49,198 bases of DNA, from contig CALFBP010000022.1 in assembly GCA_937951625.1 (NCBI GenBank), positions 1 through 49,198 on the forward strand, in the 5' to 3' direction. The notes under the pieces were generated by a model that searched no databases, was not told where the DNA came from, and worked only from the letters and a program-made list of their open reading frames with translations. Shown piece after piece: positions 4,732 through 24,666 of this stretch. The translations under genes were made by a program, and so were the position numbers. The stretch is from an uncultured Thermoguttaceae bacterium. GTDB lineage: Bacteria; Planctomycetota; Planctomycetia; Pirellulales; Thermoguttaceae. Within the stretch, counting starts at the first letter, position 1, and each line of letters begins with the position of its first letter.

Positions 4732-4992
4732 CTACCGATCCGAACCGATGGACTCGCGGACTTCGTGGAAGATTTGGCGAAGTTCCTTCAACGAAACCTC
4801 TTCCAAGCGTTTGCCTGCGCGGTCCAATCGTTCGTTGACCTTGATTGCCGTCTCTTGCATCACGGCGTGCGTATCCTGACTCCCGCCGACTAAGACGAAA
4901 TTTTTGCCCCGGGTCAATCGGGTATGCCCATCGTCGTTGTCGAACGCGAGGCCCAAAATGGCGGCGGATTTGGGGGGGCCGTTGGCTTTCAC
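4732..4992 (-). CDS. Small conserved protein of unknown function (86 aa)
   Basis: An 86-residue protein with a central segment ILGLAFDNDDGHTRLTRG and FVLVGGSQDTHAVMQ, followed by an amphipathic helix-rich half (ETAIKVNERLDRAGKRLEE). I recall similar proteins only from Planctomycetes, without a known function. There is no signal peptide or membrane segment. It begins 9 bp after the FHA gene stop and ends 96 bp before the DHPS-like gene, so it sits between a signalling protein and the cofactor genes on the same strand. It is likely a real gene because of its tight spacing and protein-like composition. Confidence 0.7.
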   Translation of the reverse strand: MKANGPPKSAAILGLAFDNDDGHTRLTRGKNFVLVGGSQDTHAVMQETAIKVNERLDRAGKRLEEVSLKELRQIFHEVRESIGSDR

Positions 4993-5001
4993 TCGTGAAT
5001 C

Positions 5002-5625: not shown

Positions 5626-5637
5626 CGCTCTGAACAC

Positions 5638-6103
5638 CCCTCATGCAACGAGAAGAGCCGAAGAACTCGGCAAGCACCTCCCCTGGGCTAAACCATCGCG
5701 CCGGTTACCTCCCACTGTCCGCCCTTAGTATGAACGAAATCTTTGGCGATGCAACGGGGTTCGGTATTTTTTGTCGGTCGGCGAGAGCCCGTAACTTCTG
5801 TCCCAGCCCCAAAGAGCCGCCCAAGCATTACAGGCTTTCGACGCCCATGTTTGCTGTATGGTTTGTAGGACCACCAACCGATGCCACCCAATGAAATTCT
5901 TTCCCAAATCGCGGCAAAGGCAACCCCCGCACCGTAAGTAATCGATCGTTTTTTAAGGGCAAGAATTCAAAACAACAGCCCCAAACCCCTCCATCGAGGG
6001 CGGTTGTCTCTGCACGAGATAGGCGGGTGTGAATACGATATGGGCAGCGATCCAAATCTGCTTCTCCAAAGAGATTCCCACCCCACGGCCGCGTGAATGT
6101 TAG
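5638..6103. other. Gene-free stretch between FHA gene and lipM
   Basis: About 465 bases with only short frames lacking protein-like composition. It must contain the promoter of the minus-strand FHA/H4MPT run and the 3' end of the gcv-lipM operon. I see no convincing hairpin terminator, tRNA or repeat. Confidence 0.5.
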
Positions 6104-8397: not shown

Positions 8398-8550
8398 AGT
8401 ACAAGGACTGCCAGTTTGTCAGACAGGTAAAAAGCCGGAATTTGTACCCATAAGACGCCCCCTGGCGACCAGCCGACTTATCTGCCACGCGAAAGAAACT
8501 GCATGGCGTGCTGGCCCAAGGACCACTCGGAGTCAACGAGCGACCGGGGT

Positions 8551-9894
8551 TTACGCCGTTGTCAACACCTCCGCAAGTCGGTCAATTTGTTGTTTAGTCC
8601 GCTTTTCCGTCACTGCGACGAGGAAGCAGTCCGCCAGCTCGGGATACCACCGACCGAGCGGGACGCCGGCCAGGAAGCCTGCGCCAAGAGCGCTTTCCAG
8701 CCGCTTTTCAACTTCCCCGTCAACGGCCCGAACGACGAATTCCTTGAACACCGGCCGGTCGAAGCCCCGCCGCAGCACGCCGCTGGCAGTGAGCCGCTGG
8801 ATGGCGTAGTTGGCTTTCTGCACGCATAGTTCGGCGACCGATCGCATCCCCTGGGGGCCCATGGCCGCCAAATACACCGCGGCCCGAAGTGCCAAGAGGC
8901 CCTGATTCGTGCAAATGTTGCTCGTGGCCTTTTCGCGGCGGATGTGTTGTTCGCGGGTCTGGAAAGTAAGCACCCAACAGCGGTTGCCGCGGCGATCGAC
9001 GGTCTGGCCGACCAGGCGGCCCGGCATTCGCCGCACGAATTGTTCGCGGCAGGCCAGAATGCCCAAGTATGGTCCACCAAAATACATGGGGTTACCCAGC
9101 GACTGGCCTTCGGCCACGACAATGTCGGCGCCGTAATCCGCCGGGCGGACGAGCAGCCCGAGGCTGATGGGGTCCACAACGACGATGAACATCGCTCCAG
9201 CCTCGTGAGCGACCCGGGCACACGCCCGAACGTCCTCCAAGCAGCCAAAAAAATTGGGGTGCTGAACGACCACGCAGGCGGTGCGGTCATCCACGGCCGC
9301 GGCCAGCGCCTCCGGCTGAACTGTCCCATCCGGCGTGGGTACGACCGCCAACTCGGCATCCAAATTGGCCAAGTAGGCAGCGATGATCTGGCGGTATTCA
9401 GGATGGAGACTTTGAAGAACCACGACCCGGCCCGGACGGTCCGTTACGCTTCGAGCCATCAGCACCGCCTCGGCGGTCGCCGATCCGCCGTCATACAGAC
9501 TGGCGTTCGACACATCCATTCCAGTCAGTTGGGCGATCAACGTCTGGTACTCGAAGATCGCTTGCAGTGTGCCCTGGCTGGCCTCTGGCTGGTAGGGGGT
9601 GTAAGCCGTGTAGAACTCGCTGCGCGCGGCCACGAAATCGACCACCGCAGGGATGAAATGGTCATAAGCCCCCCCGCCCAAAAAACACACCGATTGGGCC
9701 GCGGATACATTGCTTCCCGACAATTCCGCCACATGCGCCGTCAATTCCAATTCGCTTAGCGCAGGCGGAAGATTCAAGTCGCCCTGAAGCCGTAATTCCC
9801 GGGGCACCGAGGCAAACAATTCTTCGATCGAGGTGACGCCGATCGCGGCCAGCATCGCCTCTTGATCGGCAGGCGTGTTGGGGATGTAAGGCAT
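8551..9894 (-). CDS. gcvPA: Glycine dehydrogenase (decarboxylating) subunit 1
   Basis: A 447-residue subunit beginning MPYIPNTPADQEAML, the standard GcvPA N-terminus. It also shows GGGAYDHFIPAVVD and YTPYQPEASQGTLQ. The frame stays open 48 codons further upstream, but that part is unlike the family, so ATG 9894 is preferred. It pairs with GcvPB to form the heterotetrameric P-protein. It follows gcvH by 122 bp on the same strand. Confidence 0.95.
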   Translation of the reverse strand: MPYIPNTPADQEAMLAAIGVTSIEELFASVPRELRLQGDLNLPPALSELELTAHVAELSGSNVSAAQSVCFLGGGAYDHFIPAVVDFVAARSEFYTAYTPYQPEASQGTLQAIFEYQTLIAQLTGMDVSNASLYDGGSATAEAVLMARSVTDRPGRVVVLQSLHPEYRQIIAAYLANLDAELAVVPTPDGTVQPEALAAAVDDRTACVVVQHPNFFGCLEDVRACARVAHEAGAMFIVVVDPISLGLLVRPADYGADIVVAEGQSLGNPMYFGGPYLGILACREQFVRRMPGRLVGQTVDRRGNRCWVLTFQTREQHIRREKATSNICTNQGLLALRAAVYLAAMGPQGMRSVAELCVQKANYAIQRLTASGVLRRGFDRPVFKEFVVRAVDGEVEKRLESALGAGFLAGVPLGRWYPELADCFLVAVTEKRTKQQIDRLAEVLTTA

Positions 9895-10016
9895 ACGGGT
9901 TTGCGAAGAAAAAGTTGGTGAGAAGCGAGTCAGGGACGAAGCTCTCTTGCAGCAAGCCAGGCTTCCCGCCCCTTCAGCCTTGGGGTCCATCCACCTTGGC
10001 CTCCTGACGTCGTAAC

Positions 10017-10418
10017 CTAATGCGACTCTTCCGCGCACTGTTTTTGGTATTCGTCGTAAGAAAGCAACGTGCTGCGGTCAACGTCGCCGGCCACTTTGAT
10101 CTTGACCAGCCAATTGGCCCCATAAGGATCCTCGGCGATGCGATCCAACCGGTCGGCGACAGCCGTGTTGACCTCGACCACTTCGCCGTTGACGGGGCTG
10201 TAAAGGTCGCTGACGGCCTTGACCGATTCGATTTCGCCGAACGCTCCTCCCGCTTCCACCCGCCGACCCACCGGGGGGAGTTCGATGAAAACCAGATCGG
10301 TCAAGGCCTCCAGGGCGAAAGCGGAGATGCCGACGGTGGCGATCGTCTCGCCGGTGGGATTCGTGGTTAGGTGGACCCATTCGTGGGTCTTCGTGAAAAG
10401 CAGATCTTCAGGTTTCAC
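10017..10418 (-). CDS. gcvH: Glycine cleavage system H protein
   Basis: A 133-residue lipoyl carrier. GEIESVKAVSDLYSPV carries the lipoylation site at Lys67, and THEWVHL marks the N-terminus. The start is a GTG at 10418 preceded by AAAGGA at good spacing; the GTG overlaps the gcvT stop as GTGA, so the two are translationally coupled. The longer upstream frame lies inside gcvT and is not real. GcvH shuttles the aminomethyl and dihydrolipoyl groups between P, T and L proteins. The L-protein (lpd) is not in the window. Confidence 0.95.
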   Translation of the reverse strand: MKPEDLLFTKTHEWVHLTTNPTGETIATVGISAFALEALTDLVFIELPPVGRRVEAGGAFGEIESVKAVSDLYSPVNGEVVEVNTAVADRLDRIAEDPYGANWLVKIKVAGDVDRSTLLSYDEYQKQCAEESH

Positions 10419-11566
10419 TGGGATTTTCCTTTCACATTGCGGCGGTAAAACGGTAAGGGGGCGACCATGGCCGGTTCTCGCCGGCCACGCACGTCGACGC
10501 TGACTTCGGTTCCTGGCGTAGCCCAAGTAGGCGCAAGATACGCCATGGCGATCGACTTCTGGAGCGTGGGCGAGAACGTGCCGCTCGTGACTTCGCCGAT
10601 GCGCTGTTCCCCGGCGAAGACGGCGGCCCCCTGTCGGGCCACGCGACGACCAACCAGCTCCAATCCCACCCGAACCGCCTTGGGCGGCTGATCACGGAGT
10701 TTCCGCAAGGCGTCGCGGCCGGGAAAATCGACGCCCTCCAAGTAGCAGGCGAAGCCGAGTCCTGCTTGGAACGGGTCGATGTGTTCATCGAGTTCATGGC
10801 CGTAGAGAGGCATCCCCGCCTCCAAACGCAGGGTATCGCGGGCGCCGATGCCGGTCGGAACCAGTCCTAACGGCTTTCCTAGCTCCACGATCGCGTTCCA
10901 TACATCTACGGCGATGCTTGCCCCGACGCTCAATTCAAAACCGTCCTCCCCAGTGTAGCCCGTGCGGCTGATGATACCCCCTTGGCGCCGCGCCGCGGGG
11001 TGCAGGATACGCACTTGGGCCCCGTTGTAATAGCGCATCCATTCCAAATCCGCGTCGACCAACGACTGTAGCAGATCGTAGGACCTTGGTCCCTGAATGG
11101 CGAACATGGCCCAAAGCCGCGTGACATCCGTCCAAATCACCTCGCGGCCAGGGGCTTCCGCCACTTCCCGAGGCAGGTGGGCATCGATCCAGCGGACAAT
11201 CTTTTCCCGATTGCTGGCATTGACCACAACGACGTAAAACGGTTGCCCGTACTCGTTGTGATAATAACCCACCAGAACGTCGTCCAGGATTCCCCCTTGA
11301 TCGTTCGTCACCAAAGAATAGCGGACCTGGCCCAGACGAAGGTCCCTCATGCGCCGGGTCAAAAGCCCCGCGAGAAATTCTTCCGCCCCCGGGCCCTCGA
11401 ATCGGATCCTCCCCATGTGGGAAATATCAGTAATCGCGCACGCGTTTCGGGTGGCGTGGTGTTCCTCGATGATGGAAGTGTATTGAAGAGGCATGGACCA
11501 ACCGGCGAAATCCACCATCCGGGCGCCGTGAGCTACATGCCAATCGTAGAGCGGCGTACAATGCAT
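10415..11566 (-). CDS. gcvT: Aminomethyltransferase, glycine cleavage T protein
   Basis: A 383-residue folate-binding T protein that releases ammonia from the aminomethyl-lipoyl group of GcvH and forms methylene-tetrahydrofolate. Visible family segments are TPLYDWHVAHGARMVDFAGW at the N-terminus, SRTGYTGEDGFEL in the middle and the C-terminal barrel with GEVTSGTFSPTL. It is the first gene of gcvT-gcvH-gcvPA-gcvPB-lipM. I looked upstream for a glycine riboswitch and saw no recognisable aptamer. Confidence 0.95.
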   Translation of the reverse strand: MHCTPLYDWHVAHGARMVDFAGWSMPLQYTSIIEEHHATRNACAITDISHMGRIRFEGPGAEEFLAGLLTRRMRDLRLGQVRYSLVTNDQGGILDDVLVGYYHNEYGQPFYVVVVNASNREKIVRWIDAHLPREVAEAPGREVIWTDVTRLWAMFAIQGPRSYDLLQSLVDADLEWMRYYNGAQVRILHPAARRQGGIISRTGYTGEDGFELSVGASIAVDVWNAIVELGKPLGLVPTGIGARDTLRLEAGMPLYGHELDEHIDPFQAGLGFACYLEGVDFPGRDALRKLRDQPPKAVRVGLELVGRRVARQGAAVFAGEQRIGEVTSGTFSPTLQKSIAMAYLAPTWATPGTEVSVDVRGRREPAMVAPLPFYRRNVKGKSQ

Positions 11567-11691
11567 AGCTCGCTGATGATTACAATCAATTCATCCGTGG
11601 GTGGAGTCTTCCTCGAAGGCAGCGAACGTCGGCCATTGTAATCTTTTGGTGCGGCGCGGCAAGCGACTGTCGGCAGCGAGCCGAGCACCTC

Positions 11692-12861
11692 TCAAGCAAG
11701 GCCAATCGCCTCGCGATATACGCCAAGGGTCTCGTGGACCATCCGGCTGGCCGTGAAGTGTTGGAGCATCCGCTGTCGGGCTCGCGCGACGCGCTCCGCT
11801 CGCAAGGCTTCGTTTTCCAATGCGTCGAGGATAGCGGCGGCCAGCAAGTGCGGTTTGCCGGGCGGGACGGTCCATGCGACCGGCGTTTCCGTGTCGGCTG
11901 AATCGCCTACCAAATCCGTAACACCACCAGCCGTCGTGGTCACGATCGGACAACCGGCAAGCATTGCCTCCATGAGGGTAACCGGCAGGGCCTCGCTCAG
12001 GGAGGGCAGAATGAACAAATCGGCCGCGGCCAACAGATCGGGCACGTCAGTCCGGTGGCCGAGAAATTGGACGTGGGAACCGATTCCCAGAGTGCTGGCC
12101 TGGGCTTCAAGCGAGGTACGCAAGGGACCGTCGCCAGCAAGCACAAGGCGCGTCTCTGGCCGTCGCGCGATGATGCTTTGCATCGCCTCCAGCAGATCGC
12201 GATGCCCCTTGCAGGTAACCAACTGCGCTACGGTTAGGATCAAGTGCTCATCCTGACGGACGTTCAGTGCGTTGCGGGCCCGTTGGCGATCGCCGGGCCG
12301 CCAAGCGGCGGGATCGATGCCTCCGTGGACCACGCGAATCATTCGCGGCGGGATGCCACTTTCTTGGCAGACTTGCGCCACGGGACGCGATACGCAGATC
12401 ACTCGATCGCAGAACGCCCGGTAGCGTATTGCCCAGCGGATTGGAAAATACAAATGGCGTGCGGCCACCCGGGCCTTCATTCTCAATCCAATTCCCGCCA
12501 GGCCCGCGGCCGTCACCGCGTGAGGATCATTGTAATGGAGGACATCAGGTTGCAGGCGGCGGAGGGCGGCGCGGATTTGCAAAAAGGCCAAGGGATTGCG
12601 GCCATTGCCGTGGAAAGGGAAGACCGGGAATCCTTCGTCGGCCATCCGCCGCACGAACTGACCGTCGGCCCTGGCGAGAACAGCAACTCGCTGACCGCTT
12701 TGGCGAAGGCCCCTGGCGAGCAGCGCAGCCTGTTCCTCGCCGCCGTGCCACAGCCGTTGGGTGCAGACCAGGGCAATCGTCAGGGGACGATCTGCGTTGC
12801 AGGATCGCGGATCGCGGGCCGACGGAGAACTGCCGCGCGGCGGTCGTCGAAACAAACCCAT
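11692..12861 (-). CDS. Glycosyltransferase family 4
   Basis: A GT-B glycosyltransferase of about 389 residues. The C-terminal half shows LVLAGDGPLRTSLEAQA, VQFLGHRTDVPDLLAAAD, LPSLSEALPVTLMEAMLAG and CPIVTTTAGGVTDLVG, the standard nucleotide-sugar-binding landmarks with an EALP-type E-x7-E motif. It is probably cytosolic and uses an NDP- or GDP-sugar; acceptor and sugar cannot be read from sequence. Start choice is uncertain: ATG 12861 is used, but a GTG at 12909 is in frame and the well-conserved part begins only near PLTIALVCTQ. It precedes the gcv operon by 125 bp on the same strand without an evident functional link. Confidence 0.85.
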   Translation of the reverse strand: MGLFRRPPRGSSPSARDPRSCNADRPLTIALVCTQRLWHGGEEQAALLARGLRQSGQRVAVLARADGQFVRRMADEGFPVFPFHGNGRNPLAFLQIRAALRRLQPDVLHYNDPHAVTAAGLAGIGLRMKARVAARHLYFPIRWAIRYRAFCDRVICVSRPVAQVCQESGIPPRMIRVVHGGIDPAAWRPGDRQRARNALNVRQDEHLILTVAQLVTCKGHRDLLEAMQSIIARRPETRLVLAGDGPLRTSLEAQASTLGIGSHVQFLGHRTDVPDLLAAADLFILPSLSEALPVTLMEAMLAGCPIVTTTAGGVTDLVGDSADTETPVAWTVPPGKPHLLAAAILDALENEALRAERVARARQRMLQHFTASRMVHETLGVYREAIGLA

Positions 12862-13061
12862 GCAGTTCGAGCAGTGAATGAACGGCCCCGCGCGACGAGA
12901 GTTTACCACGAACTGGGCAATTCCGCGCGGAACGCCTCAGCCATTGAGGCTACTATAAAGCCCCCGGCGATATCGAAACAAGACCTGTGCCATCCGGTTG
13001 TACCGACGGGCACGGTGAAAGGTTATGACGCCAGCGGCTCAGTGAATCCGCGGACCATCCT

Positions 13062-14402
13062 CTAGCGCACGCGACAAGTGAAGCGGAGAATTCCGCCGGT
13101 GTTCGGCTCCAGCGGCTGGGCGATCTCCCAACGGAGAACCAAGGAACCGCCTTCGTTCGGCTGGGTGGTGAAACTGGCGGGCAGGCTCGCTTGGGCCGTT
13201 CCCGGCACGAATTCCAAGCGGGTGGTCAGGCTGTCGAGAATCACCACATTGCCGATCACCTGGTTGCCCACATTGTCGAAACGGATGGTGAAGTCCACCG
13301 TATCGCCAACTTCCGCGTAGGCCGTGGAGGCAACCTTGATGATCCGCAATTTCGGGTTGGCCGGGGGTTCATCAACGCTGTAGAGCGTGTCGATTTTTTC
13401 GTCGCGCACCACGGCGCTCGCCGTGCGACGATCGAGCATCACTTGGATCGCCTGATCGCTGGCCCAGGTGATGGCCGCTGTCGTGCCCCGCGCCAACCAG
13501 GCGCGTTCCGCCGCCTCGTAGGTTCCGGTTCGGATCACGACGAGGTTTTCGTAAGGCTTGAAGCCGTTGTCGAAAGCAGCCAGTCCGATGGCCGTGGATA
13601 GAGCGCCATCCCCTTGACGGGAGCGCATGATCGTGGGCGACTTTTGGCCGATCTGGCGCACGGTCTGAACATGCTGCTTGGTGGAACCGGTGATGGTCAC
13701 CTCGGCCTGACCGGCAGGACGCACCGGCTGCATCACCCCCGTCGATGCCACCATCTGTTCATTCTCGACCGGACCGAGGACTTGCCGGACGGAACGGAAT
13801 CGCGGACTGTAGAGCAGCACTTGGTTGCTCGGCTCGACGAGCGTTCGGCCGTCGAGCGTGTCGTAATGGGCAATGGTGTCTTCCATTTCCAACCCACGGA
13901 CCTGCCGGTCGTCGCGCACGGCCGCCTGGATACCGCCATCGCCACCATCGGCGAGGTACTCATCCGGAGGCCACGGTTTCGCGATGCCCGGCGGGGTCCA
14001 GGGGCCGGTGGCCACGTGGGGCAAGGGAACGCCCAGCTCCCAACCGGCCGGTCCCTTTGGGGTACTTGGCACGTTGATGCCGTTGGCCTCTGGAGCCTCG
14101 GAGTAAGCAGTTTGTAGCACGGGATGGGTGGACGCGGGTCGGGGTAGGGCAGGGGAGGGGGCGGCACCGAACAGGGCAGGGGAGGGGGCAGGGAAGGGCG
14201 TGATCTGGGCCGAATCCTGGGACGCGACTGGCCCCCGGCACGAACACAAAATCAGCGTGCATACCGCCAACAGCGCTATCCGCAACCAGCCCGGCATCCG
14301 TTCATCGCTCGATCGGCCTGACTCACCGCTCCAAGCCGACACGGCCACGCCAGGTTTTTCCGTTCGGGGCCGTCGAGGGAAGGCGTCTTCGATAAGGCTC
14401 AT
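13062..14402 (-). CDS. Envelope protein with C-terminal DUF11 domain
   Basis: A 446-residue protein. A hydrophobic segment near residues 39-54 (LRIALLAVCTLILCSC) is followed by a Pro/Ala-rich region, suggesting an exported, possibly lipid-anchored protein with an unusually long N-terminal lead. The C-terminal 95 residues form a DUF11 beta-sandwich: AEVGDTVDFTIRFDNVGN, VILDSLTTRLEFVPG, LRWEI and GGILRFTCRVR. The start is fixed by an ATGA overlap with the upstream gene at 14399-14402. Two blocks of GGGNAGGG motif inside the gene (14142-14198) encode repeated SPALP-like peptides. It likely acts in the envelope with the two upstream exported proteins. Confidence 0.72.
   Translation of the reverse strand: MSLIEDAFPRRPRTEKPGVAVSAWSGESGRSSDERMPGWLRIALLAVCTLILCSCRGPVASQDSAQITPFPAPSPALFGAAPSPALPRPASTHPVLQTAYSEAPEANGINVPSTPKGPAGWELGVPLPHVATGPWTPPGIAKPWPPDEYLADGGDGGIQAAVRDDRQVRGLEMEDTIAHYDTLDGRTLVEPSNQVLLYSPRFRSVRQVLGPVENEQMVASTGVMQPVRPAGQAEVTITGSTKQHVQTVRQIGQKSPTIMRSRQGDGALSTAIGLAAFDNGFKPYENLVVIRTGTYEAAERAWLARGTTAAITWASDQAIQVMLDRRTASAVVRDEKIDTLYSVDEPPANPKLRIIKVASTAYAEVGDTVDFTIRFDNVGNQVIGNVVILDSLTTRLEFVPGTAQASLPASFTTQPNEGGSLVLRWEIAQPLEPNTGGILRFTCRVR
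14142..14198 (+). repeat. Dense rightward GGGNAGGG cluster inside the DUF11 gene
   Basis: Seven octamers (14142, 14147, 14152, 14174, 14179, 14186, 14191) in two blocks, all reading rightward. Both blocks are translated on the minus strand into SPALP-like peptides in a Pro/Ala-rich linker. Confidence 0.8.
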
Positions 14403-15163
14403 TTCGGTGCGGCCTCCGCACGGCTCTTGGTTGCTGGGGGAGCAGCCTTGGGTTTCGTTTCCGCGGTGGACGTCGCTGGGCCTGGCAGCGAAAGAAACGG
14501 AGGACAGCCGAAGAGAAACCCCATGTCGGCCTCACCTTCGCTTGGCACCCGACCTCCCATTCGCACAATGGCAATGGGGCGTCCCAGCGTGTCGGCCACG
14601 GTCAAGGGGTCCATGCCCGGGGCCACATCGAACCAGCTTTGATCTCCGGTCCCCGAAGCGGGAAGTGCGGCCTGCGGGTCTTCCACGTACACCACCCGGG
14701 TCACGAACTTGCCCTGGGCCGCCAGTTCGAGATCCTCCTTCGTCAACTCAATGATTACGGGAAATCGCGTTTCCATGCCGCGCGGGGCGTAGAGCCGATC
14801 CACGATCTCGATCGTCGGGTAGACGGCCACTCCCGGCTGAAGGGGAAGATTGATCGCCGCCAAGCGATACACCTGACCCACCAAGAGTCCGACGCGGACC
14901 GGGCTCGCGGTGGGCTGGCGAAAGCGGCCGCCTTCCGCCAGCGAGATTAGGACCTTCGCCGGGGCCCGAATCTCGACTGGCTGGAAGAAGCCGGGTAGGG
15001 GCCCGCCGCGAGCGAGTTGCTGGCTACCAATCGCTCCCGGAGGCAAGCCCGCAGGGTGCCAAAAATGCACTGCGGGCTGTTGGCCGCAAAGAGGGCTGAA
15101 GGTCCCCAGCCACAGCATCGCAGCTATCGCCAAGTTGCCAGCAACTCGCATCCAGCAGTCCAT
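14399..15163 (-). CDS. Exported protein, paralogue of the next gene upstream
   Basis: A 254-residue protein starting MDCWMRVAGN with a signal peptide ending near PLCGQQ. The core (YRLAAINLPLQPGVAVYPTI, then KEDLELAAQGKFVTRVVY and DPLTVADTLGRPIAIVRMG) aligns with the core of the gene at 15359-16519, so the two are tandem paralogues. The C-terminal 30 residues are Ala/Lys/Pro-rich. An upstream in-frame ATG at 15208 is possible. Its stop overlaps the start of the DUF11 gene. Function is unknown; export plus pairing with a DUF11 protein suggests an envelope structure. Confidence 0.72.
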   Translation of the reverse strand: MDCWMRVAGNLAIAAMLWLGTFSPLCGQQPAVHFWHPAGLPPGAIGSQQLARGGPLPGFFQPVEIRAPAKVLISLAEGGRFRQPTASPVRVGLLVGQVYRLAAINLPLQPGVAVYPTIEIVDRLYAPRGMETRFPVIIELTKEDLELAAQGKFVTRVVYVEDPQAALPASGTGDQSWFDVAPGMDPLTVADTLGRPIAIVRMGGRVPSEGEADMGFLFGCPPFLSLPGPATSTAETKPKAAPPATKSRAEAAPK

Positions 15164-15358
15164 TGTTCCCGCCTGTTGAGAGGAGATACCTGCCCGGCTA
15201 TGAACCATGGCCCGATTTCGTCGAACTCCAGCGGCCCCTGGATGGATCCCCCGCTCCGACTTTTGGGGAAGGACGTTGTCTGTCGGCTTGCCGTCCGTGG
15301 ACCGTGGTGCCAGAGGCGTTCTTCGGGCCCACTCAGGTTAGGCTCCTCGGCATTCTGA

Positions 15359-16519
15359 TCACTCCGCGGTTGCTGGCATGGTTCCGTTCTGACCGTTTCC
15401 TTTTTGAGGGCAGGGGACCTCGCCATTCTCACCGGCGATGAATTGGTGCCTTGCCCAATCCGGCTGGCGATAGTTCTCGCCGCCGGGCTGGACCTTCTCG
15501 ACGATCCGGGCATGGTTGGCGGGCCGAGGATAGCTCATCCCGGGCTTTTGCTTCACGTCAACGCGCACGTGGCGCTGCGGTTCGGGAAGATGGACTTTGG
15601 TGTGGTTAACGATCTTGTGCTTTTGCAACCCGGCGGGAGCTCCGAGCGGGATGTGGGGCGGGCCGGGCAATCCGATGGGCGTGCCCGACATCGGCATACC
15701 CCACTGCGGGCCCGTGACCCCGGAAATGTAGGTCGGCGGGACTGGACCACCCATCATTCCCGGCATCCCCATGGGACTGCCGCCCGGCCCCAACGCTCCT
15801 GCAAATCCAGCGGGGGTGACCCCATTGGCTTCGGCCATCGGGTTGGGAAGCTGTAAGTCTTTGTTGCCGATCCGGACCACCGCCAAGATCGCGCCTCGTC
15901 GGTCGGCCTCGACGATCGGATCAACGCCTGGATCGAGCCGCGTGCTGACAAGCGTCTCCACGCCAGCCACCGCCAATTCCTGGAATTCGGGATCCGGCAG
16001 GTAAATGACCTTGGTCACGAAGTTGCCGCTCATCACTTGGTCGAAGTCTTCAGGAGTGAATTGGATGGGGATGGCGTTGTGGGCCAAAAAAGCGGCCGTG
16101 CGGGGCATGGTGGGACCGATTTCTAACGTGGGATACAGTTCCACGCCCGGACGGCCCGGGATGTTCACCAGTTTCAAACGATAGATCGCGCCTTCCGGGA
16201 AGTTGTAACGGCCAGGAACGACCAACGGTTCCGAATCGAACAGCCCCGGCCCGCTGACATCCCAGTGGATGACCATGCCCTCAGGGCCAGCGAACACCAC
16301 TTGAGCGGCTTGTGCGGGCAAGGGCATGGCGGGTTGGTACATCAACACGCCTGGCCCCGGTCCATCGACCCCAGGCCCGGGACGCATGAGCATGGCCGCT
16401 GGGGGCAAATTGTTCCCGATGCCCAGCGATCCACCGTCGGAACTACCGTCTCGGCACACGTTGTGGAGGCAGCCCGTGCATGCTACCACTAGAGCCAACA
16501 AATACTTGCCGTATCTCAT
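15359..16519 (-). CDS. Putative lipoprotein, paralogue of adjacent exported protein
   Basis: A 386-residue protein beginning MRYGKYLLALVVACTGC; VVAC or CTGC could serve as a lipobox. The core shows AIYRLKLVNIPGRPGVELYP, then PEDFDQVMSGNFVTKVIYL and DPIVEADRRGAILAVVRIG, shared with the gene at 14399-15163. A Gly/Pro/Met-rich central linker (PMGMPGMMGGPVPP) and a His/Lys/Pro-rich tail follow, and the tail carries one copy of the polar octamer (15408). It heads a three-gene minus-strand module with the paralogue and the DUF11 protein. No function is known to me. Confidence 0.72.
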   Translation of the reverse strand: MRYGKYLLALVVACTGCLHNVCRDGSSDGGSLGIGNNLPPAAMLMRPGPGVDGPGPGVLMYQPAMPLPAQAAQVVFAGPEGMVIHWDVSGPGLFDSEPLVVPGRYNFPEGAIYRLKLVNIPGRPGVELYPTLEIGPTMPRTAAFLAHNAIPIQFTPEDFDQVMSGNFVTKVIYLPDPEFQELAVAGVETLVSTRLDPGVDPIVEADRRGAILAVVRIGNKDLQLPNPMAEANGVTPAGFAGALGPGGSPMGMPGMMGGPVPPTYISGVTGPQWGMPMSGTPIGLPGPPHIPLGAPAGLQKHKIVNHTKVHLPEPQRHVRVDVKQKPGMSYPRPANHARIVEKVQPGGENYRQPDWARHQFIAGENGEVPCPQKGNGQNGTMPATAE

Positions 16520-16763
16520 CAGGTATCCCCCCTACCTATTTGCCATCAGACCCACCCTAATTTCCTAGGCTGAAGTCCGAGGGACTTTGATTTGCCGAAG
16601 CAACGCTTTCCACGTGGCGATTTTCCCGGAAGCCGGATACGATGGTACGTCGCCTGTCCAACCGGTCGCCCAAAAAGGATGCAAGCATGGAAAAACCCCA
16701 CTAGCGTCTTATGTTCGGTTTACTACAACGCGATTCTTTGGCAAATCCGGCAGAACCCCCACA

Positions 16764-17810
16764 ATGAACTTCAGGCTCACCACCATCGTGATCGCTGGGA
16801 TCGTCGCTGTGGGGGGAGCCGTGGCTATCATTCCACAACCGCGAGGTTTGCGTGAACCCCTCGTCCGGAGGGTGGTATCGATTGGGCTGCACGCGTTGCC
16901 CACGTCGCTCCGGGAAAAAGATTGGCGAGGGCAGGGCAGGGGGGGCAACGAGAAAACCATGCCCCTCGACCCTCCGGACCAATCCGCTTCAAACCGGAGC
17001 GGAAACGATTCCCAGGCTGAACAGCTCCTGGCCCAAGCCATCGCGATGCTGGAGCGATGCCCGGCTTTTGCCGCCAAGACCCGACAATCGGTGTACTTGT
17101 ATGGTAAGCATTTGGTTGGTTCAGGCGACTATCTAGAGTACCGTCAGGACGGCATCCATCGCTTCCGAATCGAGCTGAAGATGCAAATTGGCGAAGAACT
17201 TCGCTCGTTGCAACTTGTCTGCGACGGCCGGTATCTTTGGAGGTCGGAGTCGTACCAGGGAAGGGGGGGTGCGGAACGCGTGGATTTAGCTCGAATCGCC
17301 CGGGCTGTGGAGGGGCAGACCCAGCCCCTTTCGCCCGATCAGCTCCTTTGGCGGACACGTTTGGGTGGGCTTTCCAAGCTCCTGCGCAATCTTCGAGACC
17401 ACTTCTGTTTCACCGCAGTCGTTCCCACCGCCTTGGCTGACCAAACCCCGGTATTCCGCCTCGAAGGCTCCTGGCGCCCTGATCGCCTCGCCTCGTTGAT
17501 CCATAGCGAAGGCGTCCGGGTCCAAATCGGCAAGCGCACTGGCGACCTGCCCGAACACATCCCAGACCGCGTGGCCCTGTTCCTTGGCCGTGACGATCTG
17601 TTTCCGTTTCGCATCGAATACCGCCGCCGTTGTGCGTCGCTTCTGCCGGGAGAGGAAGAAGAGCGCATCACGGTCGCCATGGACCTGTTTGAGGTCTCGT
17701 TTCATCCGGCGGTGAATCCCTCCAGGTTTACGTTCACCCCAGGAAACCTGGAGCACTCCGATCAAACAGATCGCTTCCTGGAACGCTTGGGCGTAGTGAA
17801 CAGCCGGTAA
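16764..17810 (+). CDS. Exported LolA-like protein of unknown role
   Basis: A 348-residue protein with an N-terminal membrane/signal segment (NFRLTTIVIAGIVAVGGAVAI). From about residue 90 it resembles LolA/LolB-like half-barrel proteins: SVYLYGKHLVGSGDYLEYRQ, RFRIELKMQIG, LVCDGRYLWRSES and a late RIEYRR strand and SFHPAVNPSRFTF. Such domains in Planctomycetes are generally uncharacterised. ATG 16764 was chosen over the frame opening at 16587, since the earlier part is not protein-like. The gene diverges from the lipoprotein gene at 16519, so 16520-16763 should hold two promoters, though I see no decisive boxes. It converges with dtd. Confidence 0.62.
   Translation: MNFRLTTIVIAGIVAVGGAVAIIPQPRGLREPLVRRVVSIGLHALPTSLREKDWRGQGRGGNEKTMPLDPPDQSASNRSGNDSQAEQLLAQAIAMLERCPAFAAKTRQSVYLYGKHLVGSGDYLEYRQDGIHRFRIELKMQIGEELRSLQLVCDGRYLWRSESYQGRGGAERVDLARIARAVEGQTQPLSPDQLLWRTRLGGLSKLLRNLRDHFCFTAVVPTALADQTPVFRLEGSWRPDRLASLIHSEGVRVQIGKRTGDLPEHIPDRVALFLGRDDLFPFRIEYRRRCASLLPGEEEERITVAMDLFEVSFHPAVNPSRFTFTPGNLEHSDQTDRFLERLGVVNSR
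16928..16942 (+). repeat. Overlapping GGGCAGGG polar octamers inside a plus-strand gene
   Basis: Two overlapping copies at 16929 and 16934, both reading rightward, inside a gene on the plus strand. Most other left-side copies are in minus-strand genes, so orientation follows chromosome position and not the coding strand. Confidence 0.8.
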
Positions 17811-17815
17811 TCGGA

Positions 17816-17834
17816 GGGTAGGGCAGGGCAGGGG
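17816..17834 (+). repeat. Rightward GGGNAGGG cluster, last before the polarity switch
   Basis: Three overlapping octamers at 17816, 17821 and 17826 between the convergent genes ending at 17810 and 17871. These are the rightmost copies in the rightward orientation on the left side; the next copy anywhere is at 24502 and reads leftward. Confidence 0.8.
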
Positions 17835-17870
17835 GGAGGTGTCAACTCCAGCAAAGAACCTGGTCGAAGT

Positions 17871-18335
17871 CTAGCTTCGTCGTGGCGCGGTCAGCTCGCG
17901 ACTATCCAGGAGGATCGTCACCGGTCCATCGTTCACCAGCTCCACTTGCATGTACTCGCGGAAGCGGCCGGTGGCCACGGAAAGTCCTTGGCCAGCCACG
18001 GCCTCGACGAAAACGCGGTACAGCGGCTCCGCCATTTCAGGGCTTGCCGCGGCGAAGAAATCAGGACGCCGTCCACGCCGGCAGTCGCCCAACAAGGTGA
18101 ACTGACTCACGACCAGCATGGCCCCGCCTACCTCGGCCAGAGCGAGGTTCATTTTGCCCGAGGCATCCTCGAAAATCCTCAACCCAGCGATTTTTTCGGC
18201 GAGGCGCTGGGCGTCGGCCGCCGTGTCGTCTCGGGCAACACCGAGGAGCACGACCATTCCCAAGCCAATCTGGCCACACACCTCTCCGCCGACCACCACC
18301 TGGGCCCGGCTGACTCGTTGGATGCACGCACGCAT
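17871..18335 (-). CDS. dtd: D-aminoacyl-tRNA deacylase
   Basis: A 154-residue DTD that hydrolyses D-aminoacyl-tRNAs and mischarged Gly-tRNAAla. Both active-site motifs are present: SQFTLLGD (77-84) and NDGPVT (135-140, the GP motif), and the N-terminus [13 protein letters not shown] is typical. ATG 18335 gives the family length; the frame continues upstream but is not family-like. It diverges from pdxA. Confidence 0.95.
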
Positions 18336-18424
18336 GAAAATGGAGTATAGTAAACACGGAGCTGAAACGACAACCGGAACCTTTTTCACCTTTTTCAATT
18401 ACGGCCACATACACTGATTCCCAA

Positions 18425-19444
18425 ATGAAACCCCCACTCGCGATCACCCTCGGCGACCCGGCCGGCATCGGTCCGGAAATCGTGGCCAAGATTTGGCGCA
18501 TGCCAGAGGTCCACGATTGGTGCCGTCCGATTGCGGTAGGCAGGCCGGAAATTCTCGAGCGAGCGGTGGCCCTCGTCCAAAGCGACGCGGAAGTGGTCGC
18601 CGTGCAAAGCCCAGAAGAAGCGGAACCAACGCCGCGGCGACTCCCCTGTCTTGTGGCCGGGCCTCCCGAGGCGATCAATGCGCCGACGGGCCAAGTCAGC
18701 GCCGAGGGCGGGGAGGCGGCCTTCGCGGCCGTGGTTGCCGCGGCCCGATTGGCCTTGGCCGGGCACGTGGCCGGGCTGGTGACATCGCCGTTGAACAAAG
18801 AGGCGCTGCATCGCGCGGGCCATGGTTACCCGGGCCACACCGAGTTGCTTGCCGAACTTTGTGGGGTCCGCGATTTCGCGATGATGCTTTATCTGGGGCC
18901 GGATGGGACGCTGGCTTCGCCCCATGGCTTGGCTGTCGTGCATGTCACGTTGCACACCGCCCTTCGCAATGCCCTCGCAGAGCTCCAAACCGAAGGAGTG
19001 CTCGCCAAGGCGCGACTCGCCGATCAATTCATGAGACGGCTGACCGGTCAACGACCTCGCATCGGCGTCTGCTCGCTCAACCCGCACGGCGGCGAAGGCG
19101 GTTTGTTCGGTGACGAGGAATTGCGGATCATTCGACCGGCAATCGAGCGGGGGCGAACCGAAGGCCTCGATCTGACCGGCCCCCTCCCGGCCGACACGCT
19201 CATGGTCCGCGCTCGCGAGGGTCACTTCGACGCCATCGTGGCCATGTTTCACGATCAGGGACATATCGCCTTGAAGTTGCTGGGGATGCACCGGGCGGTG
19301 AACGTCACGCTAGGGCTGCCGATCGTGCGGACCAGCGTGGCCCATGGCACCGCGTTCGACATCGCATGGCGGGGCGAAGCCCGAGCCAGTAGCCTGATGG
19401 AGGCCGTGCGCGTGGCCGCCCGGCTATGCCAAACGGCGGGCTGA
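18425..19444 (+). CDS. pdxA: 4-hydroxythreonine-4-phosphate dehydrogenase
   Basis: A 339-residue PdxA of the deoxyxylulose-5-phosphate-dependent vitamin B6 route. It oxidises 4-phosphohydroxy-L-threonine for PdxJ. Landmarks are GDPAGIGPE (10-18), TSPLNKEALHRAGHGYPGHT with metal-binding histidine, GVCSLNPHGGEGG and MFHDQGHIALK. Full length and intact. pdxJ is not in the window. Confidence 0.96.
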   Translation: MKPPLAITLGDPAGIGPEIVAKIWRMPEVHDWCRPIAVGRPEILERAVALVQSDAEVVAVQSPEEAEPTPRRLPCLVAGPPEAINAPTGQVSAEGGEAAFAAVVAAARLALAGHVAGLVTSPLNKEALHRAGHGYPGHTELLAELCGVRDFAMMLYLGPDGTLASPHGLAVVHVTLHTALRNALAELQTEGVLAKARLADQFMRRLTGQRPRIGVCSLNPHGGEGGLFGDEELRIIRPAIERGRTEGLDLTGPLPADTLMVRAREGHFDAIVAMFHDQGHIALKLLGMHRAVNVTLGLPIVRTSVAHGTAFDIAWRGEARASSLMEAVRVAARLCQTAG

Positions 19445-19537
19445 AGTGCCCCTCCAGCGTGTCCAAAATAATGACGCCCGCGGCGGGATACCTCGGAAAC
19501 GACTTCGCGTCCCAAAATTGCCCTCGCTCCGTTCCCG

Positions 19538-20626
19538 CTAACGCAACACGGGGGTGGACGGCGGCGCGTCGGGCTTGGGGGAAAGCCAGTCGCGTCCCGT
19601 CGACCATCGCGGAAGCCAAGGGCGAGTCGGATCGGCGTCCTTGCCTGCCCCGTTCTCTTCCCGCTTGGACTCCGTGGCCGCCACCTCGGGAGAACTTGGT
19701 TCCGCAGGCCCGGTTGTGGCGCCAGCGACCGCCGACCACACACGCTGGGCTGTAGCGCCCAGCACCGCCAATTTCGACTCCGTCGGGCCCGCTGTGTCCA
19801 CCATGGGATCCTGGGCTTTCGACGTAGAAGCGATCGCATCCCACGCCCGATGCGCAACTTCGCCCAGCGTCGGCTGTTTCGCGTCGGGCGGAGGCTGTTG
19901 GCGGGGCTTCGCGTTCAGGGCCTTGCCTGAGTAATCCACGATATGTTGCGTCCAGCGCTCGGTGCGGGCCTCGAGTCGCTGGTGGTAGAACTCGGCCATC
20001 CAGGCCTGGTCCTTCATCGCCAAGAACGTGAACACGGCGAGTTTGCCGTAAGCCGAGACGTTGGGCCAGAGTTTGCTGTCAAAAAGTTTCAACGCGCTGC
20101 CGAACGACTTCTTGACTCGCATCCGACCGCGGACGTAGTCGATGCTAAAGACCTCGTCGAGCACCAAATGGATCAGGTAGCCAAGCACGACGGCGCCTGC
20201 CTTGTACAACCGGATGGGCAGATCGCCAGAAGCCAAAAGGTAGGCGATTTCGCCAAAAATGATCGCCGCCGGAATGCTGTGGAACATGCCGCGGTGGACC
20301 GTGTACCGCTTGAGAAGTTCGGCCGCGCCGAAGCGGATTCCCAGGTAAACGATAGTTCCGGCCAGGATCACTGCATCCATGGTCCAACCGAAGTTCTGGA
20401 AGCGGTCGGCGAGCATCGTCGAGACCACGGCCGCGGCGAAGGCGAGGCTTTCCCGCAGGGGCTTGCCTGGCCCGCTGTCCAAATCGGGAAGCATCCCCGC
20501 GACGCCACACAGCCCCCCGGCCAGCACGCACACTGGCCCGGGCACTTCGTAGAACACGAACGCCACGGCCCCGTAGCCCACGCCGGCCACCGTGCTGGTC
20601 GTGATGTGGGTGCGAAAATTGGCCAT
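19538..20626 (-). CDS. YdjM-like membrane-bound metal-dependent hydrolase family protein
   Basis: A 362-residue protein starting MANFRTHITTS, with several membrane segments in the first 190 residues, GMLPDLDSG, TVHRGMFHSIP (metal-binding histidines) and YLIHLVLDEVFS. These match the DUF457/YdjM family, described as putative metal-dependent hydrolases of the inner membrane. After residue about 215 a long soluble Pro/Ala/Glu-rich tail follows, longer than in E. coli YdjM. The 8 codons before ATG 20626 are less plausible. Substrate unknown. Confidence 0.8.
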   Translation of the reverse strand: MANFRTHITTSTVAGVGYGAVAFVFYEVPGPVCVLAGGLCGVAGMLPDLDSGPGKPLRESLAFAAAVVSTMLADRFQNFGWTMDAVILAGTIVYLGIRFGAAELLKRYTVHRGMFHSIPAAIIFGEIAYLLASGDLPIRLYKAGAVVLGYLIHLVLDEVFSIDYVRGRMRVKKSFGSALKLFDSKLWPNVSAYGKLAVFTFLAMKDQAWMAEFYHQRLEARTERWTQHIVDYSGKALNAKPRQQPPPDAKQPTLGEVAHRAWDAIASTSKAQDPMVDTAGPTESKLAVLGATAQRVWSAVAGATTGPAEPSSPEVAATESKREENGAGKDADPTRPWLPRWSTGRDWLSPKPDAPPSTPVLR

Positions 20627-20880
20627 GACAAAAGGGCATCCCGAGGCCACTTAACGGCCCCACGCTTTCTGATCCCAACGCAGCGACAGGAAAGCGGGGG
20701 CGCCGAGTGAACTCCTAAGCAACAGTGACCTTGTATCCAAAACGCCCCAAAGCCCCAAGATCAATCGCCACGGATTCCTCTTCGCACGGCGGGACCAGTT
20801 CGCTATACTCCCACCTCCCGAGCAGGCACATCGTGCGCTTCGAGGCCCCCGCTCGGAAGCTGCGCAAAGGAGGCAAGAGC

Positions 20881-21672
20881 GTGAATTCGTTGCCCATCCA
20901 GCCTTACGACTTAGCGATGCTAGCAGTGCTGGCAGTGGCGACGTTGTTCGGGCTGTGGAAGGGCATGGCGTGGCAGGTCGCCTCGCTGGCCTCGTTGGTC
21001 GTGAGCTTCGTGGTGGCGGCGCGGATGAGTGGTCGGGTGGCCCCGATGATCGCGGCCCAAGAGCCTTGGAATCGCTTCATCGCCATGCTGCTTTTGTACC
21101 TGGCGACCTCCGCAGCCATTTGGCTGGCGTTCCGGGTCGTTGCTCGGATCATCGACCGGATTCGACTCAAGGACTTCGACCGGCAAGTGGGGGCGTTGTT
21201 CGGCTTGGCCAAGGGGGCGTTGCTCTGCCTAGTAATCACCTTTTTCGCGGTGACCTTATCCGAATCGATGCGTCAGAACGTCTTGAACACTTATTCCGGC
21301 CGTACCATCGCCAGGGTGATCAAGCAGACCTCGCCGATCCTCCCGCCCGAGGTCCGCAACGTGCTAGGGACCTATATCGAGCAGCTCGACCGCCGGCTCG
21401 ACCCGACCAGTCCCCCGGAGCGTTCACCCCCGTCGCCGCGGCCTGCATTTCCTTTGACGGCCGAAATGCCTCGGGCGTCTGTCGAGGTTCCGCGGATCGA
21501 GTTTTCCCGGCCGGGCCAGGCCCAGGGCTTGCAACAGAAACCGATTTGGGAGTGGCCGGGAGCTTCCACGGATTCGCCGCCGCGGGAACCGGCGAGGCCT
21601 CAGGAACCGGCGAGGCAGGATTCCCGAGACTCGTTATTTCCCGTGAAAATCCCGCGTAACGACCGAACATAA
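20881..21672 (+). CDS. cvpA: CvpA family membrane protein
   Basis: A 263-residue inner-membrane protein with about four helices in the first 120 residues: LAMLAVLAVATLFGLWKGM, VASLASLVVSFVVAARMS, FIAMLLLYLATSAAIWLAF and GLAKGALLCLVITFFAVTL. The GLAKG turn before the last helix is typical of CvpA. The C-terminal half is Pro/Arg/Ser-rich and disordered. The start is a GTG at 20881, fixed by a strong AAAGGAGG nine bases upstream; the longer frame upstream is spurious. The stop codon (21670-21672) lies inside the candidate dif site. CvpA proteins are linked to colicin V production and envelope stress in enterics; their exact role is unclear. Confidence 0.88.
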   Translation: MNSLPIQPYDLAMLAVLAVATLFGLWKGMAWQVASLASLVVSFVVAARMSGRVAPMIAAQEPWNRFIAMLLLYLATSAAIWLAFRVVARIIDRIRLKDFDRQVGALFGLAKGALLCLVITFFAVTLSESMRQNVLNTYSGRTIARVIKQTSPILPPEVRNVLGTYIEQLDRRLDPTSPPERSPPSPRPAFPLTAEMPRASVEVPRIEFSRPGQAQGLQQKPIWEWPGASTDSPPREPARPQEPARQDSRDSLFPVKIPRNDRT

Positions 21673-21689
21673 GAAACATTATCGGACGT
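21662..21689 (-). other. Candidate dif-like XerCD recombination site
   Basis: Read on the minus strand, the 28 bases divide as 11-6-11: ACGTCCGATAA, then TGTTTC, then TTATGTTCGGT. Against E. coli dif the XerD-side arm matches 8 of 11 (TTATGTT plus the last T), the centre 4 of 6 and the XerC arm 5 of 11; against B. subtilis dif the XerC arm matches 8 of 11. The inner ATAA-N6-TTAT symmetry is complete. It lies near the middle of the interval (17.83-24.50 kb) where the KOPS-like octamers reverse direction, and I found no better match there. Alignments were by eye, so this is a candidate only. Confidence 0.5.
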
Positions 21690-22138
21690 TGGGGAGACCC
21701 CAAAAACCAGCTCCCAAGCGGCCGCTCGGCCCGCGATGCCTCAACACTCAATCACTCCCCGGGCCTACGGATACGTGCAGCCCAGCCACGCGGTCCCTGG
21801 GCGATGGCTCTGGGAGCTTTCCCTGGCCCGGCGGCCGCCACGCTCCGCATCACCCCGGTTGAGAAACGATCCGCCGCGGACGGCCCGAAACGCGCTGCGC
21901 GATCAGTTCGTTTTGAACGCCCGTGGGCGAGAGGCTCGCGCAGGGAATGGGGCCGCCAGAGGCACCGCCATTGTGGCACGACGATTTTCAGACTTCAGAT
22001 CGTCGCGGTAGCAATCGACGAGCGGTGGCGATTGGGATCGTTGCGCAAAAACTAGAATCAGCCCAGACAGGCGCACGAGCGACAAGCGTGGGACGACCTG
22101 ACGACACGGCTGGGCACTTGGCCGTTTGAGGAGTCAGA
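21690..22138. other. Gene-free stretch between candidate dif site and accA
   Basis: About 450 bases between convergent cvpA and accA. Short frames here lack protein-like composition. No tRNA, hairpin terminator or KOPS-like octamer is seen. Confidence 0.5.
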
Positions 22139-23188
22139 CTAACTTCGAGCGGGTTCCACGGCGGCGGCTTCGCTGGCAACGCCCTCCGCTGGTTTCCCGT
22201 TGCCTGAGACGCTTGGCGGACTGACGGGCGCCTCCAGCCATCTGCCCATGCGGCGGAATTTCTGGTAGCGGGCCTCGAGGAGCTGGTCGATCGGCTGGGC
22301 CAGCAACTCGCGCAGACTATTGCGCAAATAGGTCTTCAATTCTCTGGCCATCTGATGGTGGTCGCGGTGGGCCCCGCCGAGCGGTTCTGGCAGCACCGCG
22401 TCGATCAGGCCGAAAGCCTTCAGGTCCTTGGCGGTCATTTTCAGGGCCGCGGCAGCCTGCTCTTTAAAGGAGTTGCTCTTCCAAAGGATGCCCGCGCAGC
22501 CCTCGGGGCTGATCACGGAATAATAGGCGTGTTCGAGCACGGCCACGCGATCGCCAACGCCAATGGCCAGCGCCCCGCCTGAGCCTCCCTCGCCGATCAC
22601 CACGCAAATCACCGGGGTGGGCAGGCGCGACATCTCGAACATCGACTCGGCGATCACTTGGTGCTGGCCGCGTTCCTCGGCACCGATGCCGGGATAGGCC
22701 CCGGGGGTGTCGATCAGGCAGATCACGGGCAAATGGAACTTGGCCGCGAGTTTCATCTTGGCGATGGCCTTGCGATAGCCTTCCGGATGCGCGCACCCGA
22801 AATAACACGCGGTCCGTTCCTTGACAGTCTTGCCCTTCTGGTGTCCGATCACCATCACCCGATACGCATCCAGCTTTGCCCAGCCTGTGCGCAATGCTCG
22901 ATCGTCGCCAAAACACTTGTCGCCGTGGAGTTCGACGAATTCATCGAAGACCAGTTCCAGGTAATCGGTCGTCTGGGGGCGATCCGGGTGTCGGGCGACC
23001 TCGACCGTCTCCCACGGCTTGAGCTGGCTGTACACGCGGCGCTTCATCTCCGCGATTTCGCGGTTCAATCGCCGAATCTCAGCCCGGACTTCGGCGTTGT
23101 CCTGAGCGATTTTCTCGAGCTTGTCACGCCGCGCTTCCAACTCGTAAATCGGCCGCTCAAACGAGAGACGGTATTCGCTGGTCGCCAT
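22139..23188 (-). CDS. accA: Acetyl-CoA carboxylase carboxyltransferase subunit alpha
   Basis: A 349-residue crotonase-fold subunit. The N-terminal coiled coil (ELEARRDKLEKIAQDNAEVR), ELHGDKCFGDDRAL, CLIDTPGAYPGIGAEERGQ, IGEGGSGGALAIGVGD and YYSVISPEGCAGILWK all match AccA. With AccD it carboxylates acetyl-CoA to malonyl-CoA for fatty acid synthesis. ATG 23188 is chosen over the 28-codon-longer frame. The C-terminus has a short Ala/Pro/Glu-rich extension. The 293-bp stretch upstream (23189-23481) is relatively AT-rich and probably carries its promoter. Confidence 0.96.
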   Translation of the reverse strand: MATSEYRLSFERPIYELEARRDKLEKIAQDNAEVRAEIRRLNREIAEMKRRVYSQLKPWETVEVARHPDRPQTTDYLELVFDEFVELHGDKCFGDDRALRTGWAKLDAYRVMVIGHQKGKTVKERTACYFGCAHPEGYRKAIAKMKLAAKFHLPVICLIDTPGAYPGIGAEERGQHQVIAESMFEMSRLPTPVICVVIGEGGSGGALAIGVGDRVAVLEHAYYSVISPEGCAGILWKSNSFKEQAAAALKMTAKDLKAFGLIDAVLPEPLGGAHRDHHQMARELKTYLRNSLRELLAQPIDQLLEARYQKFRRMGRWLEAPVSPPSVSGNGKPAEGVASEAAAVEPARS

Positions 23189-23481
23189 CAACGATCTCCA
23201 TCCGCCGGTGTTTGCTTGCTTGGCGCGGAAGAAACAGGGGTGAGGGGGCACGACGTGGTTTGTGTGTCCCAAACACGATTTCCACTTCCGCCAGTCCCTT
23301 TAACCCCGCGAGGACTAGAAACGCGTGGTCCTGCCCCGCGCAGTATCCATTTTCGGCTTTCGCAGGTTTAACGACATTAAGCGAACATTCAATGTGGAGA
23401 ATTTTTACACCATTCGGTGGATAGAATGCCCACAACTGTAAGTAATTTTGCGAAGATTTTGTCAGGTGGACGCTAATCTAA

Positions 23482-24666
<1,185 letters not shown>

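Follow-up and report, generated by a model that had tools for sequence, protein, structure and literature searches.

Does a 28-bp, AT-rich stretch between two convergent genes of an uncultured planctomycete act as dif, the chromosomal site at which XerC and XerD resolve chromosome dimers? The stretch occupies positions 21662–21689 of a 49,198-nucleotide window, the whole piece of Thermoguttaceae DNA that we analysed, which lies on contig C22, from its base 1, of a 4.59 Mb assembly in 105 contigs. Dif was predicted in none of the one planctomycete covered by Kono et al. (2011; PMC3025954), in those parts of the survey on which we draw, and no earlier report of a planctomycete dif appears among the titles and abstracts listed in our searches of the open-access literature. 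Here we describe what is almost certainly the dif site of a planctomycete, a kind of site that the survey did not detect in this phylum and at which filamentous-phage-like elements also appear to enter the chromosome.

In direct reading of the minus strand, the candidate is ACGTCCGATAA-TGTTTC-TTATGTTCGGT, with an 11-6-11 layout and inverted arms. It and its immediate surroundings comprise the following features.

20725–21672, plus strand: cvpA (Colicin_V family; PF02674, E = 6.9e-24), with its stop codon in the XerD-side arm
21662–21672, minus strand: XerD-side arm TTATGTTCGGT; its TTATGTT was a condition of the search for relatives' copies
21673–21678, minus strand: central 6 bp TGTTTC, the presumed crossover region; 4 of 6 positions vary among 46 copies
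21679–21689, minus strand: XerC-side arm ACGTCCGATAA; 10 of 11 positions are invariant, and one is shared by 45 of 46, among relatives' copies
21690, minus strand: extra conserved base A outside the XerC arm, present in 45 of 46 copies
22139–23272, minus strand: accA (PF03255, E = 5.6e-135), convergent with cvpA and on the XerC side of the site

The 28 bp share with E. coli dif their length, the 11-6-11 layout, the inner ATAA/TTAT ends and the TTATGTT core of the XerD arm. Confirming an earlier sequence-only reading, the layout and its inner ATAA-N6-TTAT symmetry lie on the minus strand from 21689 to 21662, and a recount against the E. coli sequence agrees with the 17 of 28 identities that it gave, 8 of 11 in the XerD arm. 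The reported overlap with cvpA is also borne out: the stop codon TAA (21670–21672) forms the inner end of the XerD arm. We infer which arm belongs to XerC and which to XerD, taking the E. coli dif sequence as the guide to the XerC arm. Unlike E. coli dif, the planctomycete XerD arm ends in CGGT or CGTT and not in AAAT. Because of this different end, an E. coli-type dif pattern has no match in the window with three mismatches allowed; a loose 11-base core, also with three mismatches, is uninformative (18 matches in the window against 22.6 expected).

In the 4.59 Mb genome, the core ATAA-N6-TTATGTT has a single occurrence and a reversed control pattern has none. By our estimate, base composition alone would give about 0.3 core matches in this genome, so a match in a single genome is weak evidence by itself and the comparative evidence decides. 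We therefore turn to a sequence-only profile of 30 columns, made from 26 distinct copies (those of relatives and the window's own). At E ≤ 0.01 it has a single match in the window's own genome, the window site itself (E = 1.3e-9); no better match was found elsewhere. Across the order, 352 of 396 genomes have a match at this threshold, as do 245 of the 252 of good quality (at least 90% complete, at most 5% contaminated); 37 of the 44 without a match fall below that quality bar. Exactly one match is present in 324 of the 352 genomes and more than one in 28; 11 of these 28 belong to genus g9, one genome of which has as many as 18 matches. Four dif-like sites (L165, L174, L208 and L227, the first two in one genome) share a similar upstream flank on low-GC planctomycete contigs. 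That likeness and, separately, the multiple matches in g9 may reflect a repeated element carrying dif-like sites.

Searching 146 genomes of the order with the core alone gave a match in 117. Among 30 core loci fetched, 27 have the core in a longer version, AACGTCYGATAA-N6-TTATGTT, after which CGGT or CGTT usually comes next, and the remaining three look like chance matches. With only ATAA-N6-TTATGTT imposed, ACGTCYG is present in 53 of 56 core-match loci (60 loci examined). Across the 46 distinct sites, the arms are near-invariant and the 6-bp centre is variable. GTCYGATAA and TTATGTT were imposed by the search behind the 46-copy alignment, which leaves only its centre, its XerD end and the outer AAC free to vary; the XerD end reads C25 in 45, G26 in 44, G27 in 31 and T28 in all 46 copies. 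Outside about 29 bp, information falls to 0.92 bits or less, with weak flank conservation about 13–25 bp beyond the XerD arm. In Proteobacteria, by contrast, A25 is highly conserved and the XerC arm is less conserved than the XerD arm, according to the parts of Carnoy and Roten (PMC2731167) used here; the planctomycete copies have C25 in 45 of 46 and an XerC arm that is at least as fixed.

The sequence-only reading had proposed a check of the cvpA–accA region of relatives for conservation of the 28 bases, and beside cvpA they are conserved. Loci were chosen by similarity to the cvpA protein only, and 30 of 35 such places were fetched, some of which had contributed copies to the profile; 28 of the 30, the window included, have a full-length profile match, and the other two each have a half-site near cvpA. 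In a phylum sample, 205 of 392 genomes match at E ≤ 0.1, most of the weaker matches (E above 1e-3) counting as candidates only. Family f21 of the same class has profile matches in 27 genomes (E from 2.8e-4 to 1.7e-8), 24 of them with a single match. Among the matches listed, the strict arm pattern also occurs in records titled as other phyla, such as Acidobacteria, Nitrospirota, Chlamydiae and Alicyclobacillus, which means that planctomycetes are not alone in having this XerC arm; the non-planctomycete records listed usually have other bases at the XerD end.

An unexpected finding is that the site has a conserved gene neighbourhood, accA-dif-cvpA. Within flanks of about 10 kb, the XerC side of dif carries accA in 20 of 21 relatives, and in 17 of them cvpA occupies the XerD side. 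The two genes also flank the site in four loci of family f21 (L369, L373, L374 and L375), with accA alone in L377; the arrangement therefore spans, at least in part, two orders of the class. This recurrent environment differs from the situation in Proteobacteria, in which dif has no apparent specific genetic environment, as stated in the parts of Carnoy and Roten (PMC2731167) that we use. The site is nonetheless independent of the two genes, because locus L109 (genome G138) has an intact site and neither accA nor cvpA within about 10 kb (tblastn, E 1e-5).

The octamer GGGNAGGG, which is the E. coli KOPS consensus, converges on the site from both sides, as in E. coli. In the window, two opposed groups are seen.

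2865–17833 (starts 2865–3101 and 14142–17826), plus strand: 19 KOPS-like GGGNAGGG octamers pointing towards dif, with one opposite at 6863
24502–47813 (starts 24502–47806), minus strand: 19 KOPS-like octamers pointing towards dif, with one opposite at 48973

Plus/minus counts are thus 19/1 below the site and 1/19 above it, figures inflated by overlapping tandem copies that are not all independent. Overlapping tandem octamers, 5 bp apart, lie at 14142–17833 inside the KOPS cluster. The interval in which the polarity switches, 17833–24502, has its midpoint about 508 bp from the centre of the site, in line with the 500 bp or so first estimated. In 21 relatives, over up to 10 kb each side, octamer orientations number 124:8 to the left of the site and 13:110 to its right, or 234 towards dif and 21 away, again with overlapping tandem copies inflating the counts. 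When no prior motif is given, GGGCAGGG emerges as the most polarised of all 8-mers (z = 10.74), a polarity reached in 0 of 1,000 permutations with random flipping of flanks (maximum 5.87). In 15 of the 21 relatives, as in the window, the best interval for the octamer switch contains the site; in the other six relatives it misses the site by 1.2–4.5 kb. The polarity persists at L109, which lacks both genes (6:0 and 1:3). Of the relatives whose chromosomes were sampled more widely, G343 has octamers at 11:2 and 0:12 in the 20-kb flanks of dif and G420 at 6:0 and 0:4 in its flanks; the polarity extends over megabases in G030 and over one arm only in G024, and in G234 the samples closest to dif, at distances of at least 60 kb, give no sign of a switch.

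The genes for the machinery are present as well. In 24 genomes of the order, including the window's own, model searches find FtsK_gamma in all 24, XerD in all 24 (18 over the cut-off) and XerC in all 24 (20 over the cut-off), and 23 have two distinct Xer genes; in G031 one gene only passed the strict limit, which gives no evidence of a separate XerC there. The window's own genome encodes XerC, XerD and FtsK-gamma on contigs C21, C39 and C7, matching E. coli in this complement. Structure 1a0p of E. coli XerD gives a full-length alignment with the XerD-type protein of a relative (E = 8.1e-64), and a relative's FtsK-gamma aligns with structures 2ve8/2ve9 of P. aeruginosa FtsK (E = 5.5e-11), with a recognition helix of igygraarlid in the relative against igynraarmie in 2ve8. 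Unlike E. coli, none of the 24 genomes gave a match for FtsZ/tubulin, in a search that was positive in 13 of 14 control genomes.

Possible traces of recombination are found in a few relatives, in the form of half-sites, copies that keep the centre and the XerD arm. An exact search (TGTTTC centre, first base not A) detects them in 4 of 396 genomes (G036, G099, G004 and G340), with no control matches, and G052 has a further one. In G052 (locus L113), an intact dif is followed 8.6 kb on by a half-copy in the same orientation that keeps the centre, 10 of 11 XerD-arm bases and 4 of 11 XerC-arm bases. The interval between the two sites (L113:9985–18617) encodes an M13 pIV-like secretin (PHROG, E = 8.9e-17), a replication-type protein that matches REP_ORF2-G2P (E = 6.1e-8) and a protein that matches Zot weakly (PF05707, E = 2.3e-4). 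The half-site of G036 (L023:2866–2893), with 11 of 11 bases in the XerD arm and 4 of 11 in the XerC arm, is close to cvpA and separated by 16.6 kb from the intact dif. The 10 kb beside that dif (L112:1–10015) encode a secretin, a Zot-like protein (PHROG, E = 4.3e-11) and a protein whose Rep_trans match is under its cut-off (E = 2.8e-5); a second PF05707 Zot match among the inserts is also weak (E = 1.1e-3). The contents compared are the whole interval in L113 and, in G036, the 10 kb next to dif together with the half-site, and relatives without inserts serve as the empty-site comparison. The two inserts have homologous Zot-like proteins (E = 4.6e-74) and homologous secretins (E = 1.5e-81), and no homology was found between their replication proteins. 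Two relatives thus have a Zot-like protein, a secretin and a rolling-circle replication-type protein beside dif, some by weak matches, and a hybrid site further on. A third locus, L172, encodes a secretin homologue and a Zot-like protein (PHROG, E = 2e-30) at 477–4304, beside dif and an accA match, with no half-site within its 8 kb. The other half-sites lie 11.2 kb from dif in G099 and, in G004, 2.6 kb from cvpA in the second of the two cvpA loci without dif, the intact dif being on another contig; that of G340, with 6 of 11 XerC-arm bases retained, is perhaps a full site that has diverged.

The simplest reading of this anatomy is that filamentous phages integrate at dif through a crossover in the centre. 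The filamentous phages CTXphi, VGJphi and TLCphi integrate at dif by XerCD (PMC4246890, in the parts on which we rely), and like them the elements in the two relatives combine Zot-like, secretin and rolling-circle replication-type proteins beside dif. Their hybrid sites have a degenerate XerC arm, the mirror image of the TLCphi attP, in which the XerD side is degenerate, as described in the same parts of that source. We regard the elements of L113, G036 and L172 as candidate filamentous phages of planctomycetes that would integrate through the host XerCD. Among the first 10 of 20 papers listed in a literature search for such phages, none mentions planctomycetes, and the Zot-like proteins of the two inserts have no relatives among viral contigs in a search reaching close relatives only. 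Half-sites are expected if dif recombines in vivo, and they point, indirectly, to XerC and XerD acting at the site.

Dif-like arms are also carried by viruses: at least 120 stretches of IMG/VR viral contigs (L232–L351) contain ACGTCYGATAA-N6-TTATGTT with varied centres, which makes them many candidate Xer-integrating phages. One such contig (L257:1–10514), with terminase large subunit and portal genes, carries the Pirellulales-type dif ACGTCCGATAATGTTTATTATGTTCGGT at 9759–9786; these 28 bp are identical in L122, L166 and L224, and the centre may be a clue to hosts whose own dif shares it. Two other loci, each with an accA match, have two inverted dif-like sites with differing centres (L161:2027–2140 and L200:4962–5065; 86 and 76 bp from start to start). 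We rejected these pairs as attP sites of the CTXphi type: four L161 proteins have no PHROG match, and the only one of four L200 proteins that was matched is a kinase.

The position of dif relative to the replication terminus is a separate matter. The reversal of GC skew proposed at the site is unsupported, the window giving +0.018 against +0.002 over 10 kb on each side, and local GC skew is higher on the left of dif in only 14 of 22 loci. We fitted two-arm GC-skew models to the chromosomes of five relatives (20 sampled stretches each, 60 bootstrap replicates). Dif is excluded from the skew switch in G420 (switch at 2.67 Mb, bootstrap 2.35–3.04, against dif at 1.64 Mb) and in G343 (4.73 Mb, bootstrap 4.26–5.19, against 7.28 Mb), and the bootstrap intervals do not exclude it in G030 and G024; in G234 the fit is poor, and the interval (2.63–4.61 Mb) narrowly excludes dif, which lies at 4.66 Mb. 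As a terminus test, GC skew gives a mixed outcome; a second unexpected finding is that in two of five sampled chromosomes the GC-skew switch is remote from both dif and the KOPS switch. The site is of the same kind, and the prediction logic the same, as in Kono et al. (2011), from whose sites, in the portions of PMC3025954 considered here, it differs by this shift of the skew away from dif in two of five. We did not accept dnaA as a marker of the origin: most records begin with a dnaA copy, and two copies are present in 25 of 26 genomes. In P. aeruginosa, segregation ends at dif and replication elsewhere, and, according to a section heading, GC skew switches at dif (PMC6199493, in the parts cited here); since its skew is said to switch at dif despite the separate end of replication, we treat uncoupling as a lead and not as a result. 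It is conceivable, and in our judgement somewhat improbable, that in FtsZ-less planctomycetes an intact XerCD-dif-FtsK-KOPS system marks a segregation terminus uncoupled from the replication terminus, with dif and its octamer zone staying in an ancestral accA-dif-cvpA locus and moving with it, and a skew switch possibly megabases away.

With very high confidence, the best explanation of the 28 bp is the chromosomal dif of a Pirellulales-type planctomycete, serving dimer resolution by XerCD with FtsK and KOPS. The dif reading is supported by uniqueness in the genome, conservation beside cvpA and the KOPS switch in 21 relatives; direct observation covers the site, its conservation pattern and genome uniqueness, octamer convergence, the XerC-, XerD- and FtsK-gamma-type genes and the half-sites of a few relatives. 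Binding and catalysis by XerC and XerD, and the role of FtsK at dif, we infer. Counting against the dif reading are the GC-skew switch away from dif in G420 and G343, the octamer switch that is not visible in the G234 samples, the 28 genomes with several matches and the 44 with none, the six relatives whose best switch interval misses the site, the altered FtsK-gamma recognition helix and the G340 half-site that is perhaps a diverged full site. XerC would bind ACGTCCGATAA and XerD TTATGTTCGGT. FtsK would load on the GGGNAGGG octamers that point at the site from both sides, pump DNA towards dif and activate XerD via its gamma domain. In a chromosome dimer, the two copies of dif would then synapse, and strand exchange at both edges of the 6-bp centre would yield two monomers.

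Other readings account for part of this evidence. That accA and cvpA converge on the site in most of the 21 long-flank relatives, and that the flank beyond the XerD arm is weakly conserved, would suit a conserved regulatory or RNA element of the two genes, such as an operator or terminator, that resembles dif by accident. We judge this very improbable: the site remains intact, with octamers switching around it, in L109, where neither gene lies within about 10 kb, and the region gave no Rfam match at E ≤ 0.1, no promoter-like site and terminator-like sites at chance level only. Such an element would also leave unexplained the near-fixed arms with a variable centre, the convergence of octamers and the half-sites. 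The dif-like sites of the viral stretches, and the phage-type genes adjoining the site in some relatives, could instead mean that the 28 bp are an attachment site left by Xer-using mobile elements, an attP remnant and not the host's own dif. A remnant is hard to reconcile with a single copy in 324 of 352 genomes with a match, a recurrent gene neighbourhood and octamers that converge on the site, and the profile search of the window's own genome gives no second, better-conserved site at the octamer switch; there is little chance that it is correct. Least probable of all is a Ter-like replication-fork trap at the terminus in place of a recombination site. A trap might mark an octamer polarity switch as this site does, but its near-symmetric two-arm form with a variable 6-bp centre, its similarity to dif, its single copy and the half-sites all argue against one, as does the location of the GC-skew switch elsewhere in two chromosomes.

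Read as dif, the site bears on how planctomycetes segregate their chromosomes. Studies of segregation in bacteria dividing without FtsZ gain an anchor in it; the occurrence of the E. coli KOPS consensus in so distant a phylum is evidence that the way FtsK reads DNA is deeply conserved, and candidate filamentous phages of planctomycetes seem to use dif as a target for integration. In Planctopirus limnophila, ftsK could not be deleted and is seemingly essential, and ftsI, ftsW and mreB are dispensable (PMC6952346, in the parts on which we draw). XerC, XerD and the word 'dimer' have no occurrence in the main text of that paper, and dimer resolution is therefore a testable explanation for the essentiality of ftsK. 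If the uncoupling of segregation and replication termini were true, the pumping of DNA to dif would be a candidate reason why ftsK cannot be deleted in P. limnophila.
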